Below, piece by piece: positions 106-7,421 of a stretch of 64,000 nucleotides of DNA (within the stretch, counting starts at the first letter, position 1; the number at the start of each line of letters is the position of its first letter). The translations under genes and the position numbers were made by a program. This stretch comes from Methanolobus sp. (GTDB lineage: Archaea; Halobacteriota; Methanosarcinia; Methanosarcinales; Methanosarcinaceae). The notes under the pieces are model-generated. The model was not told the origin of the DNA. It saw only the letters and a list, made by a program, of their open reading frames with translations, and made no database searches. The stretch covers positions 1-64,000 of the forward strand of contig JARVGJ010000009.1 in assembly GCA_029762595.1 (NCBI GenBank). The letters are read 5' to 3'.

Positions 106-501
106 CTAAAGTACTTCCTGTACTCTCTTGAAGATAAGTCCTGCAATGAGCTTATCACTTCCAAGAGGCTTTGCGTAAACGATCTTTACCTTCTGTCTGT
201 CTAACTCTACCTCACCTTCATTTGTCTGCGGGTCCAGGTCAAGGAATTCAGGAATATCTTCTGTGAGGTGGACCCCGGATGCAAGGAATATGGGCGTTGC
301 AGCTATTTTTGTTACACCTGTGCCTTCAAATGACATCAGTGCTTCTTTAACAGTAGGTTTACTATGCTCTACGAATCCTGTCTTGATCACATATTCAGGA
401 TGATCTTCTGCTATCATGTTTGCGATCTCGGTAACAACCTGGTTATTGTAGGGTAACCGGCTGCCGTGTCCTATAATTAAAATACCTATTTTGTCACTCA
501 T
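106..501 (-). CDS. cfbA: small sirohydrochlorin metallochelatase (CfbA/CbiX-S), copy 1
   Basis: A 131-residue single-domain chelatase of the short CbiX/CfbA type. In methanogens this family inserts Ni2+ (coenzyme F430 route) or Co2+ (cobamide route) into sirohydrochlorin in the cytoplasm. The GHGSR motif carries the candidate metal-binding His12, and FLASGVH carries the second, His78. The length equals the usual homodimeric short form, not the bacterial two-domain protein. A purine-rich ribosome site (AAAGGAAGG) lies just before the ATG. A close paralogue lies 266 bases upstream on the same strand. Which metal each copy handles cannot be read from sequence. Confidence 0.9.
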
Positions 502-767
502 TACGTAGCCTTCCTTTCAAAACACTATTACCAATATGGTATATATTAGTTGCTAAATAGAATACGTTTCTAAGTTTTTATAATATATTCTCATATGCTA
601 AAAACAAATGGCTTTTGTATTTTTTTATAATTCTGAAGATCGATCCTTCACGGTCCCGGTAAGAACAGGGAACATTTTTGCTCATTACAAGCCAGGAAAA
701 GAGTCTGTGAAAATAAGCTATCAATAAAGGTATATTCGAAAAAAGAAGGCTGTGCCAGTGACACAGC

Positions 768-1163
768 TTAAATTACTTCCTGTGCTCTCTTGAAGATAAG
801 CTCTGCAATTAGCTTGTCGCTTCCAAGAGGCTTTGCATAGACGATCTTTACTTTCTGTCCGTCAAACTCTATCTCACCCTCGTTTGTCTCAGGGTCCAGT
901 TTAAGGATTCCAGGGATGTCTTTTGTGATGTGGATGCCTGATGCAAGGAATACAGGTGCTGCAGCTATTGTTGTTACTCCTGTACCTGCAAAGGACATGA
1001 GCGCTTCTTCGACGGTAGGTTCGCTGTTCTCCATAAAGCCGGCTTTGACGATATACTCAGGGTGGTTCTCTGAGATCATGTTAGCGATCTCTGTCACAAC
1101 CTGGTTGTTGTATGGTAATCTGCTGCCGTGCCCAATAGCTAATATTCCAATTTTTTCACTCAT
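768..1163 (-). CDS. cfbA: small sirohydrochlorin metallochelatase (CfbA/CbiX-S), copy 2
   Basis: This 131-residue paralogue matches the copy at 106-501 without gaps, with about four of five residues identical by eye. Both metal-site histidines (H12 in GHGSR, H78 in ASGIH) are kept. The differences cluster in the middle (residues 30-65) and in the loop at 84-100. A good ribosome site (AAGGTGA) precedes the ATG. The gene follows fdhD on the same strand after a gap of about 120 bases, so it may be read with the fmd-fdhD operon or from its own promoter. Keeping both copies intact suggests divided metal or regulatory roles (nickel for F430, cobalt for cobamides), which is inference. Confidence 0.9.
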
Positions 1164-1281
1164 AATGTCACCTTCTTTGTATACACTGGTATTATAAAGG
1201 ATAATAATTGTGTTACTTAACAGGGGGATAGTAGGGTGGTTATGTGATATAATGTTTTTTGTTTCAAAGTATCAATATCCT

Positions 1282-2118
1282 TCATAATCTTTCATTTAAT
1301 CGGATTCGCTCTTCCCCTGCATACGCATACATATCGCGCCCCCTCACAAAAGCCACAAGCGTGATCCCTGCCTTCTTCGCAAGCTCCACAGCCTCGCGTA
1401 CAGTGGCGCCCTTGCTTGCAACAAGAGGGATGCCGGCATTCACAGCCTTTGAGACCATGGTGGATGCAAGCCGGCCGGTGGTCACCAGCATACACTGTGA
1501 GAGGTCTGTGCCGTTCATCAGGGCCTTACCAACGACCTTGTCCACAGAACATGCCCTTCCCACGTCTTCGCAGAAGAATAGCACTTCTCCTGCATTATCA
1601 CAGATCATGGAAGTGTGCGCTCCGCCGGTCCTGTGCCATATCCTGCCAAGCTCTTTTAGCTGGCCGACTGCATGTGTGATCGCATCAGTAGTGAATTTTA
1701 TATCTGGATTGATGTGTTTGATAGCATCCTTGCGGTATGATGTTGTTCCGCATCGCTCAAGGCGGGTGAGTTCCTCCAGTTCAGGAGTGTTGATCTCAAT
1801 TTTACAGAACATAGTTCTGCCTTCGATCTTTATGGGATCTAGTTTTGTATCAGGTTCAATGAATCCCTCGCATACGAGAAATCCCAGTGCAAGCTCTTCA
1901 AGTTCGTATGGACTTGCAAAAAAAGTAGTTACATGGAAGTTATTTACGAAAAGTTCTGACTTTTCTTCGATTATAACGTCCACAGTAACGTTTTGTTTAT
2001 CGTTCTCAGTGATCTGCAGGCACTTCATTGGGATATAAAAGGATGAGGGGATGTATTCCTCATCCCTGTGGAAAACCGTGGTCTTCCTGTTTCTTTCTGA
2101 GTACCGTTTCTCACTCAT
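1282..2118 (-). CDS. fdhD: FdhD-family sulfurtransferase for molybdopterin enzymes
   Basis: A 278-residue FdhD protein. Family members carry sulfur from a cysteine desulfurase to the bis-molybdopterin-guanine-dinucleotide cofactor of formate-dehydrogenase-type enzymes. The LALGFLVCEGFI segment (residues 77-88) and the C-terminal GRLASTMVSKA and GIPLVASKGATVREAVELA segments are characteristic. In E. coli two cysteines of a CxxC loop relay the sulfur. Here the corresponding loop reads ERCGTTSY, so only Cys123 remains. The start overlaps the fmdB stop by four bases, so it is the last gene of the fmd unit. Its obvious client is FmdB, whose fold and cofactor match formate dehydrogenase. Confidence 0.92.
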   Translation of the reverse strand: MSEKRYSERNRKTTVFHRDEEYIPSSFYIPMKCLQITENDKQNVTVDVIIEEKSELFVNNFHVTTFFASPYELEELALGFLVCEGFIEPDTKLDPIKIEGRTMFCKIEINTPELEELTRLERCGTTSYRKDAIKHINPDIKFTTDAITHAVGQLKELGRIWHRTGGAHTSMICDNAGEVLFFCEDVGRACSVDKVVGKALMNGTDLSQCMLVTTGRLASTMVSKAVNAGIPLVASKGATVREAVELAKKAGITLVAFVRGRDMYAYAGEERIRLNERL

Positions 2119-3428
2119 GCTTCCTTTCTGGCCTTTATCTTTGCAAAGAGCTGCTTAAGGGTATCCTCATTGCTCTTTGTTTCAGGGAAAGGTGAGTCTG
2201 TGAACGGTTCGAAATATACGGGCACATTGTCCAGCCTGTAGAACGTACCGTCACATTCCATTGCATCTATAACACCGGGCAGAACCACATCGGATGCAGT
2301 TGTTGTCGGGCATGGTGCAATGTCTATGCACACCATTGGTATCTCTGCAAGGTACTTTGCACTGTCTGCAGGAATGTGGTTAACAAGGTCTGCTGACATG
2401 ACAAACGCAGCGTCAACGTCCTTCTCCCTGAGAAGGTCCACACAGGTAGTCTCACCGGGGTTGTACCGTGGGTATCCCTTCATGAAGTCAAGACCGAATG
2501 GGTAACCGTAAAGATATGATGCAAGCTGGTTGAATCCTGCTACGTTACAGTGGCCTCTAAGGGCACCGATGTTACACTTGGTATAATTGTTCAGTTCTTT
2601 AACAAGATTCAGTGCTATCTCTATGTTCCTGTGCTTGCCGTATGAAGATGAAACACCAAGACCTACGTAGATGGCTACATAGTTTGATTCCTTCATCATC
2701 TCAACCGTCTGTTTCATCACTGAAATTGGTATTCCTGTGATCTCTTCAACAGATGGGTGAGGTTCCCTTCCGTTAAGGATGGTGAACAGTGCACTGAGAA
2801 GCTCATAGTCCGAGTTGGGGTTAAGCTGCAGATGCAGGTCCGATGCAATGGCTGTAGGGGTCACCCTTGGGTCCACTGTTACCATGGTCCTGTCAAACCT
2901 TCCTCTCTTTGTCCAGTAACCTCTTGGGAATACACCGTACTTTGACATATGTCTTGGCATGGATTCCAGTGCATTGACACCCCAGTAGACTACCATATCG
3001 GCCCTGTTCTTTGCCTGGCCGGCGGTAGCACCTACCATGCCTGATTCCTGAATTCCCATTACAGTTGGTCCGTGACAGATGGTTGCGTTTGAGTCTGCAG
3101 GTCCTCCAAGGTATTCTGCAATATGGAGTCCTACTTCCTGTGCCTCACATGATGTCTCACTTCCAAGGAAGAAGAATGGACGTCTTGCATTGACCAGTAT
3201 GTCTGCTGCCATTTCAAGAGCTTCATCCCAGCTTACTTCCTTTACCTTTCCATTTTCCCTGATGGTGGGTTTCAGGAGCCTGTGGTTACTTACTACTTCC
3301 TGGAACTTGGCGTTTCCCATCTTACATGCGTTCTGGACATCTATTGTACGGTTCTTGGTATCCAAATCTATCTGGACATCATCACATGAACCTCCGCAAA
3401 CCGGGCAGATAATGTTCTTATGGACCAT
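2115..3428 (-). CDS. fmdB: formylmethanofuran dehydrogenase subunit B (catalytic, molybdopterin)
   Basis: The catalytic subunit of formylmethanofuran dehydrogenase, which reversibly reduces CO2 to formate at a Mo/W bis-pterin site before formate is passed to FmdA. Start choice: a GTG at 3437 is open, but it lies inside the ribosome site GGAGGTG, which sits six bases before the ATG at 3428, so I use 3428 (437 residues). With that start the metal-ligand cysteine of the CHGPT motif is residue 118, the same number as the known tungsten ligand in the Methanothermobacter enzyme. It is Cys, not selenocysteine. N-terminal CPVCGGSC and NACKMG supply the [4Fe-4S] cysteines. It overlaps fdhD by four bases. 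Confidence 0.96.
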   Translation of the reverse strand: MVHKNIICPVCGGSCDDVQIDLDTKNRTIDVQNACKMGNAKFQEVVSNHRLLKPTIRENGKVKEVSWDEALEMAADILVNARRPFFFLGSETSCEAQEVGLHIAEYLGGPADSNATICHGPTVMGIQESGMVGATAGQAKNRADMVVYWGVNALESMPRHMSKYGVFPRGYWTKRGRFDRTMVTVDPRVTPTAIASDLHLQLNPNSDYELLSALFTILNGREPHPSVEEITGIPISVMKQTVEMMKESNYVAIYVGLGVSSSYGKHRNIEIALNLVKELNNYTKCNIGALRGHCNVAGFNQLASYLYGYPFGLDFMKGYPRYNPGETTCVDLLREKDVDAAFVMSADLVNHIPADSAKYLAEIPMVCIDIAPCPTTTASDVVLPGVIDAMECDGTFYRLDNVPVYFEPFTDSPFPETKSNEDTLKQLFAKIKARKEA

Positions 3429-3429
3429 T

Positions 3430-3819
3430 TTATTCACCTCCCATGTACAGCTTCAGGACAACTTCCTCGGCGCTGAGGACCTCTTCATTGGTAGGCTCTA
3501 CGAAAACAGGGCTTCCCTTGTAACGTGGTGAACCTGTTGAGAATGTATCTGGTTCCACAACGATATTTGCCCAGATGGACCTTGGTATGAATACCTGTCC
3601 GGACTTCATTGCTTCGGTAACTTTTGAATAAACTGCAATGGTATGCTTTCCGTCCCTTGATGTAACTGATACTTTCTCAGGACAGCCCAGGGATGTAAAA
3701 TCCTCTGCGCACATCCAGCAGACTGCACATTCCTTTGTGTACTCGTCGGAATACTTATTGCCACCTTTGGCAAGTCTTCCCTCATCTATGGTACTACCTG
3801 TATTGAGTAATGCTTGCAT
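3430..3819 (-). CDS. fmdD: formylmethanofuran dehydrogenase subunit D
   Basis: A 129-residue subunit with the double-psi beta-barrel fold that helps hold the molybdopterin dinucleotide of FmdB. The frame is open further upstream to 3894, but those 25 codons lie inside fmdC. The ATG at 3819 has a clear ribosome site (GAGGTGAT) and begins ten bases after the fmdC stop. KYSDEYTKECAVCWMCAEDF near the N terminus and the pterin-binding stretch IPRSIWANIVVEPDTFSTG fit the family. Its TAA falls just before the fmdB ATG, so translation of the two is probably coupled. Confidence 0.93.
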   Translation of the reverse strand: MQALLNTGSTIDEGRLAKGGNKYSDEYTKECAVCWMCAEDFTSLGCPEKVSVTSRDGKHTIAVYSKVTEAMKSGQVFIPRSIWANIVVEPDTFSTGSPRYKGSPVFVEPTNEEVLSAEEVVLKLYMGGE

Positions 3820-3829
3820 GAATATCACC

Positions 3830-4639
3830 TCACAGACACTCGTTGTTCTCACAGGACACATACAGTGTGCCCTTTCCTTTCTGCGGGATGGCATAATCGC
3901 CTGTGAACTTCTTGTATTCCCCGGGGCACTCTATGTCATTGAACTTCAGGTCGGACTCGACTCCAGTCATCTCAAATCCCGGTGTGAATCTCTCGATACA
4001 GCCTCCGATGACAATGGTGCCGCCAGTCATTTCCGCTCCGACTGTCCTGACAGCGTTCCCCTTCACGACGATAAGGCCGCCGTTAATGCGGATGCCGCAG
4101 AAGTGCTTTACACTGCCTCCAATGACTATTTCACCGCCGGTAAGGCCTCCGCCTACCTGGCTTACAGCGTCCCCGTCCACAGTGATACGTCCGCCACTCA
4201 TGCCTTTCCAGCTGCCACGGTATGCACATCCAAGGTGGTCCTTTGTGTTGCCTTTGATGTGTATGGAGCCACCTTTCATCTCCATGCCTGCCCATGAATC
4301 GGCGTCACCTTCAATAATTATCTCTCCACCCTTCATTCCGGAGCCCATGTGCATTCCTGCGGAGCCTTTGATAAGTACTCTGCCGGCTGTCATTTCCTGT
4401 CCGATGCGCTTGACCCTGGGGATATCTCCGTCTACGATGATGGTAGTATCCTCTGCAGAGTTTCCGCCATTTCCCTGCACCGAAAAGAAATCGGTGAGCG
4501 GGTACTCTTTTGGGCCCTGCCAAACGAGTAATTTTCCAATCTCTTCGGTAGTTTTTCCGGCAAAGTTGTCAGGTGTGACAACTTCTGCCTCTACGGTAAG
4601 GTCGAAATTTCCTGTTGGTTTAAGAATTACGTCTGCCAT
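3830..4639 (-). CDS. fmdC: formylmethanofuran dehydrogenase subunit C
   Basis: A 269-residue subunit made of GxGxG-type beta-helix repeats like the C-terminal domain of glutamate synthase large chain. Repeats such as GGEIIIEGDADSWAGMEMKG, spaced about 18-20 residues, run from about residue 70 to 215. In the enzyme this helix packs against FmdA and FmdB and is structural. A GTG at 4648 is also open, but the ATG at 4639 gives the usual N terminus (MADVILKP). The fmdA stop at 4645-4647 lies just before it, consistent with translational coupling. Confidence 0.95.
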   Translation of the reverse strand: MADVILKPTGNFDLTVEAEVVTPDNFAGKTTEEIGKLLVWQGPKEYPLTDFFSVQGNGGNSAEDTTIIVDGDIPRVKRIGQEMTAGRVLIKGSAGMHMGSGMKGGEIIIEGDADSWAGMEMKGGSIHIKGNTKDHLGCAYRGSWKGMSGGRITVDGDAVSQVGGGLTGGEIVIGGSVKHFCGIRINGGLIVVKGNAVRTVGAEMTGGTIVIGGCIERFTPGFEMTGVESDLKFNDIECPGEYKKFTGDYAIPQKGKGTLYVSCENNECL

Positions 4640-4644
4640 TAGAA

Positions 4645-6399
4645 TCACTTCTCCGCATTGACCTGGATAGGTGTCGGGTTTGCCAGGTACTTCTCAGGTG
4701 TCGGATAGTTATTGAAACCGAGAGTGTAGTACTTGAACCATTTCTTTACATCCTCAAGCATCCTCTTCTCATCATCAGCATCCACTGCAATGTCTGAGTA
4801 GAAAGTGTTCTTCTCAGGGATGGCGACGATCTCGCCCATCTGTGAGACGACCTCTCCTGCCTTGATGGTGTATGCAGCATTCTCAAAGCTCCTTATGATG
4901 CTCTCGTAATCGCTGACTTCGAGTTTCTTTGGATCAATGTCGTAAATTGCAACATCACCGTCTGCACCGATGCCAAGGGTTCCCTTCCTGTATGACATTC
5001 CGATCGTCCTTGCAGGGTTTGCACGGGTGATGGTTGCTATCTCAAAGAGGTCCATTTCCCTTGTCTCTGCACCAAGATCACTCCTGTCCTGTGCCCATTT
5101 GTGGCATTCATCAAAGGTATCCTGCCTTGCTTTGTTGGACATGAGCCATGCAATGATCTGCGGATACTTTATGAATGGGCCGCCGTTGGGGCTGTCCGTT
5201 GTCATGATGCTCTTCCATGCGTCCTTGACATAGAGCAGCACTTCAAGGCCCATTGCCCACTGTACACTGTGTACGGGATTGCTCTTCAGGTATTCAAATG
5301 GAAGTACACCTGATCCGCACTCACACTCGACATCAGTGTTTGACCATTTATGGCCTGTAAGTACATAGAGGTCGTGGATTGCAGGACCGTCACCTGTCAT
5401 CACGGTCGCATCACCGAAAGGTACGCATCCGCTGTCCATTACAACGTGGTCTGTGCTGTTCACGTAATCGGTGATCCCCTTTACACCGGATTCGAAGTCC
5501 CTCCATGAGGTACCGCCAAATGCATTGAACTGGCAGTGAGTAAGATAAACTGACTCGTGCCTCTTGGCATTCTTCTTTGTCTCGGCCCACTCAACATCGG
5601 TGTTTGGTTTTGCCTTGACGTTCTTTGGGATCTTGAGTGAATCCCTTGTTATTTCCCAGCATCCTGGATGTCCCAGATTGTTTGCGTGCAGGTGCACAGG
5701 CATGGGGATGCCAAGTTTCTCATTGATTTCTGTAAGACTTTTTATAATATCTTCAGGTGTGACTTCGAAATGAATGTTTGCCTGGTCAAGGGCACTGACA
5801 TTCTCGCCCCATCCCCAGTTCTCAACACCTGCCGGATTGACACACTTAATACCATAGGTCTTGTGCGTCCTCATCATCCATGATATGTAAGCTGCTGCCT
5901 TATCGATGTCCCCTTCCTTGAAGTATCTCATGAGGAACCAGTTGTTACCCAGTACAAGATAGCCTCCCATGTCAAGCATCGGGGTTGAGCGCATTTCCTC
6001 GTGTGTATGGCGGGCTTCCATCGGTGGGACTGCTGCCTCGAAAACAGTTGTATATCCCATCTTGGAGTACTCATATCCTCCCAGGTAAACAGAAGGTACA
6101 GTGTATCCGCAACCGGAGTGTGTAATTGGTGTTCTCTTCTGGTAGAACTTGTAGTGGTCCTCAGGCCTCATCATCCTGCCTACGTTGACCTTTGCCCCTG
6201 CTACGTGGGAGTGCGAGTCCACACCACCGGGCATGACTGTCTTGCCCTTTGCATCAATTTCCTTGACATCTTTCATATCTGCTCCGGAGAGCTCAGTAAC
6301 GACCTTTCCGTTCTTTATGAAGATGTCCATCATTTCCCCGTTTATCTCATTGAGGGGATCGTAAACGTAACCGTTCTTTATTGCAATAGTTCCTGCCAT
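4645..6399 (-). CDS. fmdA: formylmethanofuran dehydrogenase subunit A (amidohydrolase)
   Basis: A 584-residue amidohydrolase-superfamily subunit that condenses formate with methanofuran at a dinuclear zinc site, linked by an internal tunnel to FmdB. The metal-binding DSHSHVAG motif (about residues 61-68), VHLHANNLGHPG (about 237-248), and the late VMDSGCVPFGDATVMTGDGP segment are visible. Length is normal for the family. The start has a strong GGGAGGAAT ribosome site located in the end of fmdF, two bases upstream. It is part of the fmdF-A-C-D-B-fdhD unit. Confidence 0.97.
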   Translation of the reverse strand: MAGTIAIKNGYVYDPLNEINGEMMDIFIKNGKVVTELSGADMKDVKEIDAKGKTVMPGGVDSHSHVAGAKVNVGRMMRPEDHYKFYQKRTPITHSGCGYTVPSVYLGGYEYSKMGYTTVFEAAVPPMEARHTHEEMRSTPMLDMGGYLVLGNNWFLMRYFKEGDIDKAAAYISWMMRTHKTYGIKCVNPAGVENWGWGENVSALDQANIHFEVTPEDIIKSLTEINEKLGIPMPVHLHANNLGHPGCWEITRDSLKIPKNVKAKPNTDVEWAETKKNAKRHESVYLTHCQFNAFGGTSWRDFESGVKGITDYVNSTDHVVMDSGCVPFGDATVMTGDGPAIHDLYVLTGHKWSNTDVECECGSGVLPFEYLKSNPVHSVQWAMGLEVLLYVKDAWKSIMTTDSPNGGPFIKYPQIIAWLMSNKARQDTFDECHKWAQDRSDLGAETREMDLFEIATITRANPARTIGMSYRKGTLGIGADGDVAIYDIDPKKLEVSDYESIIRSFENAAYTIKAGEVVSQMGEIVAIPEKNTFYSDIAVDADDEKRMLEDVKKWFKYYTLGFNNYPTPEKYLANPTPIQVNAEK

Positions 6400-6401
6400 T
6401 C

Positions 6402-7421
6402 TTATTCCTCCCTTCTCTCAAGTGCGATGGCACCTACAGGACATATCATGACACATGCAGCGTCTGACCCGCAGACTTCCTGGTTCACTATCTTTACGAC
6501 ACCGTTTCTGACTTCAAGGATCTTCTTGGCATCGACCTCATTAAGGTATCCTGCTCCGACCTCTTCATCGGTTGCATTCACCGGGCAGACGATCACACAG
6601 TTGCCGCATCCAAGACATGCATCCTCATAGGTGACCAGCCTTGAAGTAAGTGTGGGCCTTTTCATCTCAACGTTTAGCAGTTTCTTCTCAAGGATCCCCT
6701 TCTTGTCCATTTCCGGGATGATGGCTGTCTTTGTAACAGTAATCGCATTTACAGGGCATGACATGTCACATGCGCCACAATAGATACATGCATCAGCACG
6801 CTGTGCTATTTTGTCAACCCTTTCTCCGGCTTCCCAGTCCGGGTTAAAAAGAGCATTGCAAGGGCATGTGTCCACACAGGTGCGGCAGGCAGTACAGGTA
6901 TCCTCATCCCTGAACCATGTTCCTTCAAAAGGTTTCTCAACAGTGATAGCTTCTGCAGGACAGACAGCCTCACACCATCCGCAGTGTATGCAACATCCTG
7001 CGTCAATAATTGTCTCACCGTCAACCTTTGCGCTTCCGTCGTTTGAAAGCCACTGTTTTACCTCTATGCATCCCTGGGGGCATACCTGTTCGCAAAGTCC
7101 GCAGTGGACACAGTTGTCATTTACGGTTGTCTCTTTGAGTGCAACACTTATGTAACTATTGTCATTTACAGACTTTCCATCCTGTTTCATTTCAAGTGCA
7201 CCTGTTGGGCATGTCTTGGCACAGATCCCACATACAATGCAGAGTTCTGTCTGGTTCTCAAGGAAATCCTTGTCGATAAGTCCTCTTGCTACTGCTCCCA
7301 CTGAACCGAGAACTAATGAGCCTTTAGGACATGCCATAACGCACGTTCCACAGCCGATACACTTCTCTGGTGTGTATTCCAGCTGCTTACTGTCTTTTAC
7401 TCCAAACACTACTTCGTTCAT
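6402..7421 (-). CDS. fmdF: polyferredoxin subunit of formylmethanofuran dehydrogenase
   Basis: A 339-residue polyferredoxin with eight cysteine clusters. Seven are standard CxxCxxCxxxCP motifs (CIGCGTC, CIVCGIC, CVHCGLC, CIHCGWC, CTACRTC, CIYCGAC, CLGCGNC) and the last is a longer CGSDAACVMICPVG. That matches the eight [4Fe-4S] clusters known for FwdF, which wires electrons to FmdB. It is the first gene of the operon, with a GGAG ribosome site eight bases before the ATG. The order F-A-C-D-B is that of the Methanosarcina barkeri molybdenum operon fmdEFACDB, so the Mo isoenzyme is the better guess. No fmdE precedes it here. Confidence 0.96.
   Translation of the reverse strand: MNEVVFGVKDSKQLEYTPEKCIGCGTCVMACPKGSLVLGSVGAVARGLIDKDFLENQTELCIVCGICAKTCPTGALEMKQDGKSVNDNSYISVALKETTVNDNCVHCGLCEQVCPQGCIEVKQWLSNDGSAKVDGETIIDAGCCIHCGWCEAVCPAEAITVEKPFEGTWFRDEDTCTACRTCVDTCPCNALFNPDWEAGERVDKIAQRADACIYCGACDMSCPVNAITVTKTAIIPEMDKKGILEKKLLNVEMKRPTLTSRLVTYEDACLGCGNCVIVCPVNATDEEVGAGYLNEVDAKKILEVRNGVVKIVNQEVCGSDAACVMICPVGAIALERREE

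Follow-up and report, generated by a model that had tools for sequence, protein, structure and literature searches.

The start of the window, the whole 64,000-nucleotide stretch of Methanolobus DNA analysed here, raises the question of why a methanogen should maintain two closely similar small chelatase genes side by side. The window begins at base 1 of an 83,611 bp contig (C58) and covers its first 64 kb, so the sequence to the left of the pair is not known. Both genes lie on the minus strand: cfbA copy A ('VEH type', 106–501), a member of the Methanolobus A clade described below, and copy B (768–1163), assigned to the ancestral 'MEN type' by its place in the tree. The spacer between them (502–767) measures 266 bp; in the 13 further pairs from Methanolobus it ranges from 141 to 3546 bp. 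An earlier note on this DNA had described two gapless, intact 131-residue CfbA/CbiX-S genes with about four of five residues identical and both metal-site histidines kept, and this description holds. Each copy is an intact open reading frame of 131 residues that scores above the cut-off of 120 bits against the full-length NCBIfam model F430_CfbA (NF033198; A 152.1 bits, B 160.9 bits). Each also carries one Pfam CbiX domain (PF01903), and these are the only PF01903 matches in the whole source genome. The two proteins align without gaps, with 103 of 131 residues identical (79%) and 119 similar (E 3e-80), while 79 of 396 nucleotides differ. Both retain the metal ligands H12 and H78 as well as the third ligand, E45, which the note had left unmentioned. 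The reported location by the fmd operon is equally accurate, as the pair lies directly downstream of an fdhD-like sulfurtransferase gene (1282–2118, minus strand), which is not itself a member of the pair but closes the fmd/fwd cluster of formylmethanofuran dehydrogenase genes (2115–7421). Only the claim that the differences are clustered in two regions is not supported: by scan statistic the 28 A/B differences show no significant clustering (4047, 2910 and 941 of 5,000 random placements reach the observed value for spans of 10, 20 and 50 residues), and clustering beside a metal ligand is seen only in changes common to the A copies across the family. The pair is not an artefact, and it exceeds a simple tandem duplicate.

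The best explanation of these sequences is that both genes encode functional small class II chelatases of the CfbA/CbiX-S type. Size, whole-length match and metal ligands are shared with CfbA (NF033198; Methanocaldococcus jannaschii structures such as 6m27 and 6m2e), whose nickel ligands are given as His9, Glu42 and His75 (PMC11301274), the counterparts of H12, E45 and H78 here. CfbA structures are the best solved relatives of B by sequence and of A by fold search. B matches M. jannaschii CfbA with E 4e-21 and 6m2a, a chimera of the M. jannaschii and M. barkeri enzymes, with E 2e-27. The match of B to Archaeoglobus fulgidus AF0721 (2dj5/1tjn), a CbiX-S or small archaeal cobaltochelatase of the same fold family and homodimer type, is significant but weaker (E 1e-9), and sequence does not decide on a cobalt role of this kind. 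What distinguishes the locus from CfbA is that the gene is doubled and that A carries V44 and H46 (positions 41 and 43 in M. jannaschii) on either side of the metal glutamate. The His/Glu/His ligands are invariant in an alignment of 14 of the 18 A copies and are present in the other four too, and the A copy of one genome (G006) of a second genus, g5, scores 145.6 bits against the same NF033198 cut-off of 120. A predicted monomer model (mean pLDDT 89.7) superposes poorly on CfbA (TM about 0.5, rmsd about 18 Å) and no geometry was therefore taken from it. CbiX-L, CbiK and SirB are likewise described as descending from a duplicated CbiX-S and as having kept their histidines asymmetrically (PMC7689651). 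They are single fused chains of about twice the size with the histidines in one half, while A and B are separate genes, both complete, each encoding a single-domain chain rather than two fused domains. Because two subunits form the active site between them, a diverged partner would make it asymmetric, and A and B might thus form a heterodimer as a two-gene version of these single-chain enzymes. The symmetric cleft of CfbA/CbiX-S homodimers and the descent of the two-domain enzymes from CbiX-S (PMC7689651, PMC11301274) are in keeping with such a heterodimer, as is the finding that A was never found without B in the 18 A-bearing genomes. Nevertheless, both copies have the complete metal set, so that no one-sided loss is seen, and the genes, each with its own promoter, can be as far as 3546 bp from one another. 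We consider a heterodimer highly improbable.

Sirohydrochlorin is the point from which F430 (nickel), cobamides (cobalt) and siroheme or haem (iron) diverge, and class II chelatases are described as mostly lacking metal specificity in vitro (PMC7689651). The siroheme-forming chelatase of M. barkeri was reported as still unidentified in 2014 (PMC3942049). All 27 Methanolobus genomes surveyed carry CbiD and two members of the siroheme-decarboxylase family. Three metals thus compete, which counts against a simple division between nickel and cobalt, offered by the earlier note as the possible outcome of the duplication. CobN was considered as a competing chelatase and set aside as uninformative, being present in 23 of the 27 Methanolobus genomes both with and without A.

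The distribution of the two types was surveyed in 111 genomes of Methanosarcinaceae, the copies compared being those in 59 stretches around CfbA-type matches and in the window, with A copies defined by the motif VEHS. A B-type copy is present in every Methanolobus genome (27/27) and an A-type copy in 14 of them, always downstream of B on the same strand at the distances given above. The tandem pair recurs in all four genomes of g5, also of the Methanosarcinaceae. A was not found in the remaining 13 Methanolobus genomes, which include four assembled in one or two contigs each (G042, G044, G046 and G064); absence from a draft genome is no proof, and G048 is only 70% complete. A search for remnants of A in the stretches fetched from these 13 genomes returned only B and three weak partial matches (G042, G048 and G064; E 0.15–0.26), of which that in G064, a non-significant match of 29 residues at 48%, could be a relic of A. 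The other standalone extra copies examined, the third in G063 and the second in G078 and G105, are B-type, and the G063 copy was counted as such. Given its absence from 13 of 27 Methanolobus genomes, A is not essential for any of the three branches.

What unites the A copies is a block of residues around the metal ligand. GFVEHS surrounds E45 in all 18 A copies and K50 follows in 13 of them, whereas the 58 other copies all have M44 and carry N (37), M (16), H (3) or K (2) at position 46. Of 392 genomes sampled from the phylum, 15 contain the coding pattern GFVEHS-x-P, and these belong to two of 136 genera, Methanolobus and g5. In simulated evolution along the tree, three shared-derived columns within seven residues arose in none of 3000 runs under LG and in one of 3000 under LG+C20, and at least three such columns anywhere in 32 and 49 of 3000, respectively. 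A shared-derived column was one found in at least three of the four g5 copies, at least nine of the 14 Methanolobus copies and no more than three of the rest, a criterion fixed after the alignment had been seen. These observations bear on whether A is simply equivalent to B, with two promoters providing more enzyme or a steadier supply. Such a dosage or backup role is consistent with the 79% identity, the same metal ligands, the different promoters and the patchy presence and repeated loss of A. We regard it as distinctly unlikely given that V44 and H46 are kept in all 18 A copies of two genera despite far-diverged synonymous sites between A and B, and given that the A copies, although defined by a motif, form well-supported clades of their own.

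A and B also differ upstream. B is preceded by a predicted NikR-type operator (1189–1216, minus strand) with divergent half-sites, GTAACAC-N14-ATAATAC, matching at 11 of 14 positions and located 53 bp before the start codon, and alignment of 20 B upstream regions indicates a TATA-like box, ATTATATC, at 1246–1253 on the same strand. Delta-proteobacterial NikR operators are described as GTGTTAC-N13/14-GTAACAC, with the reversed arrangement in Desulfotalea psychrophila (PMC545781). The half-sites and spacing before B-type cfbA are the same, and the predicted site of B fits this form, with two GTGTTAC-type half-sites near the promoter at a spacing within the 13–14 bp range. The arrangement here, however, is divergent, and in Methanolobus the second half of the predicted site is degenerate. 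A predicted operator of the divergent GTAACAC-N14-GTGTTAC type precedes many ancestral-type cfbA genes at -50 to -58. Counting predicted sites of at least 11/14 at -44 to -62, 38 of 58 B-type copies have one and none of the 18 A copies does, compared with about 0.1% of shuffled upstream regions; these counts, made without G068 and the G109 fusion, are not independent because the interval was chosen after the position was known and the rows are related. The score is 14/14 in four copies, all from genus g14, and 11–12/14 in 22 of 28 Methanolobus B-type copies. The 20 B-type copies below 11/14 include those of g5 (9–10/14), Methanosarcina, Methanococcoides, Methanohalophilus and g4. When 200 bp upstream were searched, two A copies (G051 and G058) reached 11/14 at -84, a score also attained by 1 and 3 of 100 shuffles, respectively. 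The A promoter element of the window (519–546, minus strand), identified from an alignment of 14 A upstream regions, has no NikR-type site and consists of a TATA-like ATATATAC (539–546) followed by CATATTGGTAATAGTGTTTT, such that A appears to be transcribed from its own promoter. Methanolobus A promoters share a conserved ATATATAC and a TTATTGATAATGATATTTT-like stretch, while those of g5 are AAGTAAAGTTTACTT-like. With up to three mismatches allowed, the A promoter consensus matched eight sites in the 27 Methanolobus genomes, all of them A promoters, the window copy being too diverged to match.

A NikR-family gene is present in all 27 Methanolobus genomes. The operator pattern is not enriched genome-wide: GTAACAC-N14-GTGTTAC with at most one mismatch gave 37 sites in 31 of the 111 genomes against 40 for the control, yet cfbA accounts for 14 of the 37, the site being upstream of the gene at roughly the usual position in 13 cases and about 180 bp from it in one (G110). 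Across Methanolobus, GTAACAC-N13/14-NTNTTAC gave 20 matches against 30 for the reversed pattern, eight of the 20 being B promoters by position. Among the open-access literature matches listed, no paper addressed paralogous CfbA or NikR control of cfbA, a negative that does not prove absence. A 2006 study by Rodionov et al., cited in PMC10617489, reportedly dealt with NikR sites in the genomes of methanogens. In G063 a one-mismatch NikR-type site stands 42 bp before a DUF4198 gene, a family linked to nickel uptake. Similar one-mismatch sites coincide with the starts of FmdE-family genes, assigned by Pfam in G063 and by eye in G047, and another precedes a methyltransferase gene of G081 (L267:2824, L268:2750 and L248:1501); these genes are possible further members of a nickel regulon. 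A palindrome from g5, AAGTAAAnTTTACTT, was rejected as a regulon signal, as its one-mismatch matches are at control level (5, 3, 2 and 5 against 6, 3, 4 and 3), and a second site near a putative cobamide gene, noticed by eye, was discarded because it lies in a generally conserved spacer.

The earlier note had proposed a phylogeny to date the duplication. In CfbA trees built without the truncated G068 copy and the 407-residue G109 fusion, the A copies of Methanolobus, 14 in all, make up a single clade (100/98) inside the Methanolobus copies, while the four g5 A copies (100/100) stand apart and group with Methanosarcina-type copies (99/95), with which they have a one-residue deletion in common. 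The separate placement of the two sets of A copies and the common deletion suggest that the tandem pairs probably arose by two duplications with parallel changes, for which support is good but incomplete: a single A clade is not rejected by the AU test over all columns (p 0.128). It is rejected once the shared columns are removed (p 0.016), a result that leans towards rejection because the columns dropped were those favouring one clade. A single ancient duplication before the genera split, its history later erased by conversion outside the metal-site block, would accommodate the first AU value. Apart from the second, biased value, it has to contend with the deletion and residues that g5 A copies share with Methanosarcina-type copies, with the absence of VEH copies from the Methanomethylovorans and Methanosarcina sequences compared and from the sampled genomes of these genera, and with the lack of any present within-genome excess of A–B similarity, and we consider it quite improbable. 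Gene conversion between A and B was examined as a candidate and rejected, since synonymous difference is barely lower within than between genomes in four blocks (0.577/0.609, 0.652/0.658, 0.505/0.529 and 0.576/0.585). A–B dS ranges from 0.70 to 2.15 and is about equal within and between genomes. Purifying selection acts on both copies, with a median omega of 0.085 for A–A comparisons (90 of 91 pairs usable) and 0.052 for B–B comparisons in the same genomes.

On a CfbE tree of 26 Methanolobus genomes and three outgroups (G048 dropped; outgroup branches long and some forks open), the presence of A requires five changes (4–5 in bootstraps), three of them forced by well-supported branches, and an early gain of A in Methanolobus followed by repeated loss fits best. 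G053 carries A although the rest of its group lacks it, which could also point to transfer. A was not found in G042 and G046, both nested among A carriers; each has only one CfbA match yet retains CbiD and two genes of the siroheme-decarboxylase family, the markers tested for the cobamide and haem branches. It follows that one CfbA can suffice and that A is an accessory. With its own motif, and without the operator at the usual place, A is best described as a selected, second type of CfbA outside the predicted nickel control.

The gene neighbourhood adds a further contrast between the two genera. Outside Methanolobus and Methanomethylovorans, cfbA mostly stands directly before cfbE, cfbD, cfbC and cfbB (names by NCBIfam), with a cfbA–cfbE gap at 21 loci outside g5 of 8–30 bp in 13, 90–91 bp in four and more than 1 kb in two (genus g4). 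In Methanolobus, cfbE and the next gene stand without cfbA, and two open reading frames of the sizes that usually precede cfbA are found before cfbE (26 loci; their identity was judged by eye in the source genome). Neither A nor B thus occupies the head of a cfb operon, a position that is a habit of relatives and no defining trait of the enzyme. Methanolobus B instead lies after fdhD and the fmd genes, an arrangement shared with four Methanomethylovorans loci. By script count, fdhD is no more than 700 bp away in 18 of the 27 Methanolobus genomes, a lower bound because some reading frames were miscalled. As cfbA has left the cfb operon and has this placement in Methanomethylovorans loci too, the fmd neighbourhood is probably an inherited position. 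In all four g5 genomes, A takes the ancestral place of cfbA, 18 bp upstream of cfbE, and B lies 350–605 bp upstream of A; being at the head of the F430 genes, g5 A looks like the F430 copy. The VEH type might on this basis be a nickel-dedicated CfbA for F430, with B remaining a generalist that also serves cobalt and iron, and the order of A, CfbE, CfbD, CfbC and CfbB in g5 argues for it. In Methanolobus, however, the predicted nickel-type operator precedes B rather than A, and A cannot be required for F430 where 13 of 27 genomes do without it; we judge a nickel-dedicated A unlikely. As regards the metal that A may prefer, the g5 arrangement points the opposite way to Methanolobus.

Among the loci displayed, one genome alone (G059; L054:7621–13232) has a gene for a DtxR-family iron-dependent repressor between B and A and a CobN gene right after A on the opposite strand. 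Downstream of cfbA, pairs of CobW/G3E-type GTPase genes occur in nine of 27 Methanolobus genomes with or without A (L034:7862–10278, L045:4547–6960 and others); two of these reading frames were checked by Pfam, and the pairs are possible metallochaperones.

We tentatively favour a model, which we hold to be plausible though a little short of probable, in which a promiscuous chelatase has been subfunctionalised in both regulation and active site, with Methanolobus A serving mainly the non-nickel branches or buffering all three. H12, E45 and H78 would bind the metal, which would be inserted into sirohydrochlorin in the cleft between two subunits. If there were only one chelatase and nickel controlled it, the cobalt and iron branches would depend on nickel status. 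A would go back to a tandem duplication early in the history of Methanolobus and have subsequently been kept or lost species by species, with B retaining the predicted NikR operator of ancestral cfbA and A having its own promoter without it. When nickel-loaded NikR, presumed to bind before B, lowers its expression, A would most likely keep metal insertion going and free the cobalt and iron branches, while the fixed V-E-H block (V44, H46 and often K50) could tune metal exchange at E45 and give A a different metal or substrate preference. A would then serve mainly cobalt for cobamides, iron for siroheme and haem, or both, if it does not act as a buffer for all three metals. Subfunctionalisation has to be weighed against the occurrence of H46 alone in three non-A copies, the mostly unspecific behaviour of class II chelatases in vitro described in PMC7689651, and the lack of genome-wide operator enrichment together with the low g5 B scores. 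The clean nickel/cobalt split is only partly supported: the different promoters, a NikR-type site at the usual place only before B, conserved changes at the metal ligand in the A copies of two genera and purifying selection on both copies speak for divided roles, but iron constitutes a third branch, A-less Methanolobus keep cobamide and haem genes, and g5 A heads the F430 genes.

A bolder version of the favoured model, which we rate as rather unlikely, is that the V-E-H block acts as a switch of metal preference and arose on two occasions, both times in the paralogue leaving NikR control, and that in Methanolobus it produced a dedicated non-nickel sirohydrochlorin chelatase, possibly for the iron step of M. 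barkeri haem synthesis for which the 2014 account named no enzyme (PMC3942049). F430, cobamide and haem are three essential methanogen cofactors split from one molecule by the choice of metal. The A paralogue, with the same few changes in two genera and another promoter, therefore represents a natural experiment on how metal is steered at a branch point, and residues V44, H46 and K50 and the two promoters are testable leads.

Several other CfbA-type loci encountered in the survey depart from the usual form. At nine loci of genera g14 and g2 (L065, L066, L067, L069, L070, L073, L074, L092 and L272) the motif reads GFMNMNEP or GFMNMDEP, with Asn replacing the metal-ligand glutamate (Glu42 in M. 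jannaschii), and these lineages, known from metagenome-assembled genomes, may be candidates for modified F430 or other chemistry. The third, B-type cfbA of G063 (contig C18, 9945–10340; L274:1117–18649) is part of an island that also contains peptide/nickel-type ABC transporter genes, an FmdE-like gene (by eye) and a gene for a 1359-residue BcrAD/DUF2229 protein. The 407-residue fusion in G109 (L068:7041–8264) joins a CfbA-like domain to a SAM-methyltransferase domain. In genus g13 (G074:C1:4284853–4294311, G097:C37 and G101:C124), several weak CfbA-like matches fall within very long open frames of 4229, 1654 and 1290 codons, which would thus contain repeated chelatase-like domains.
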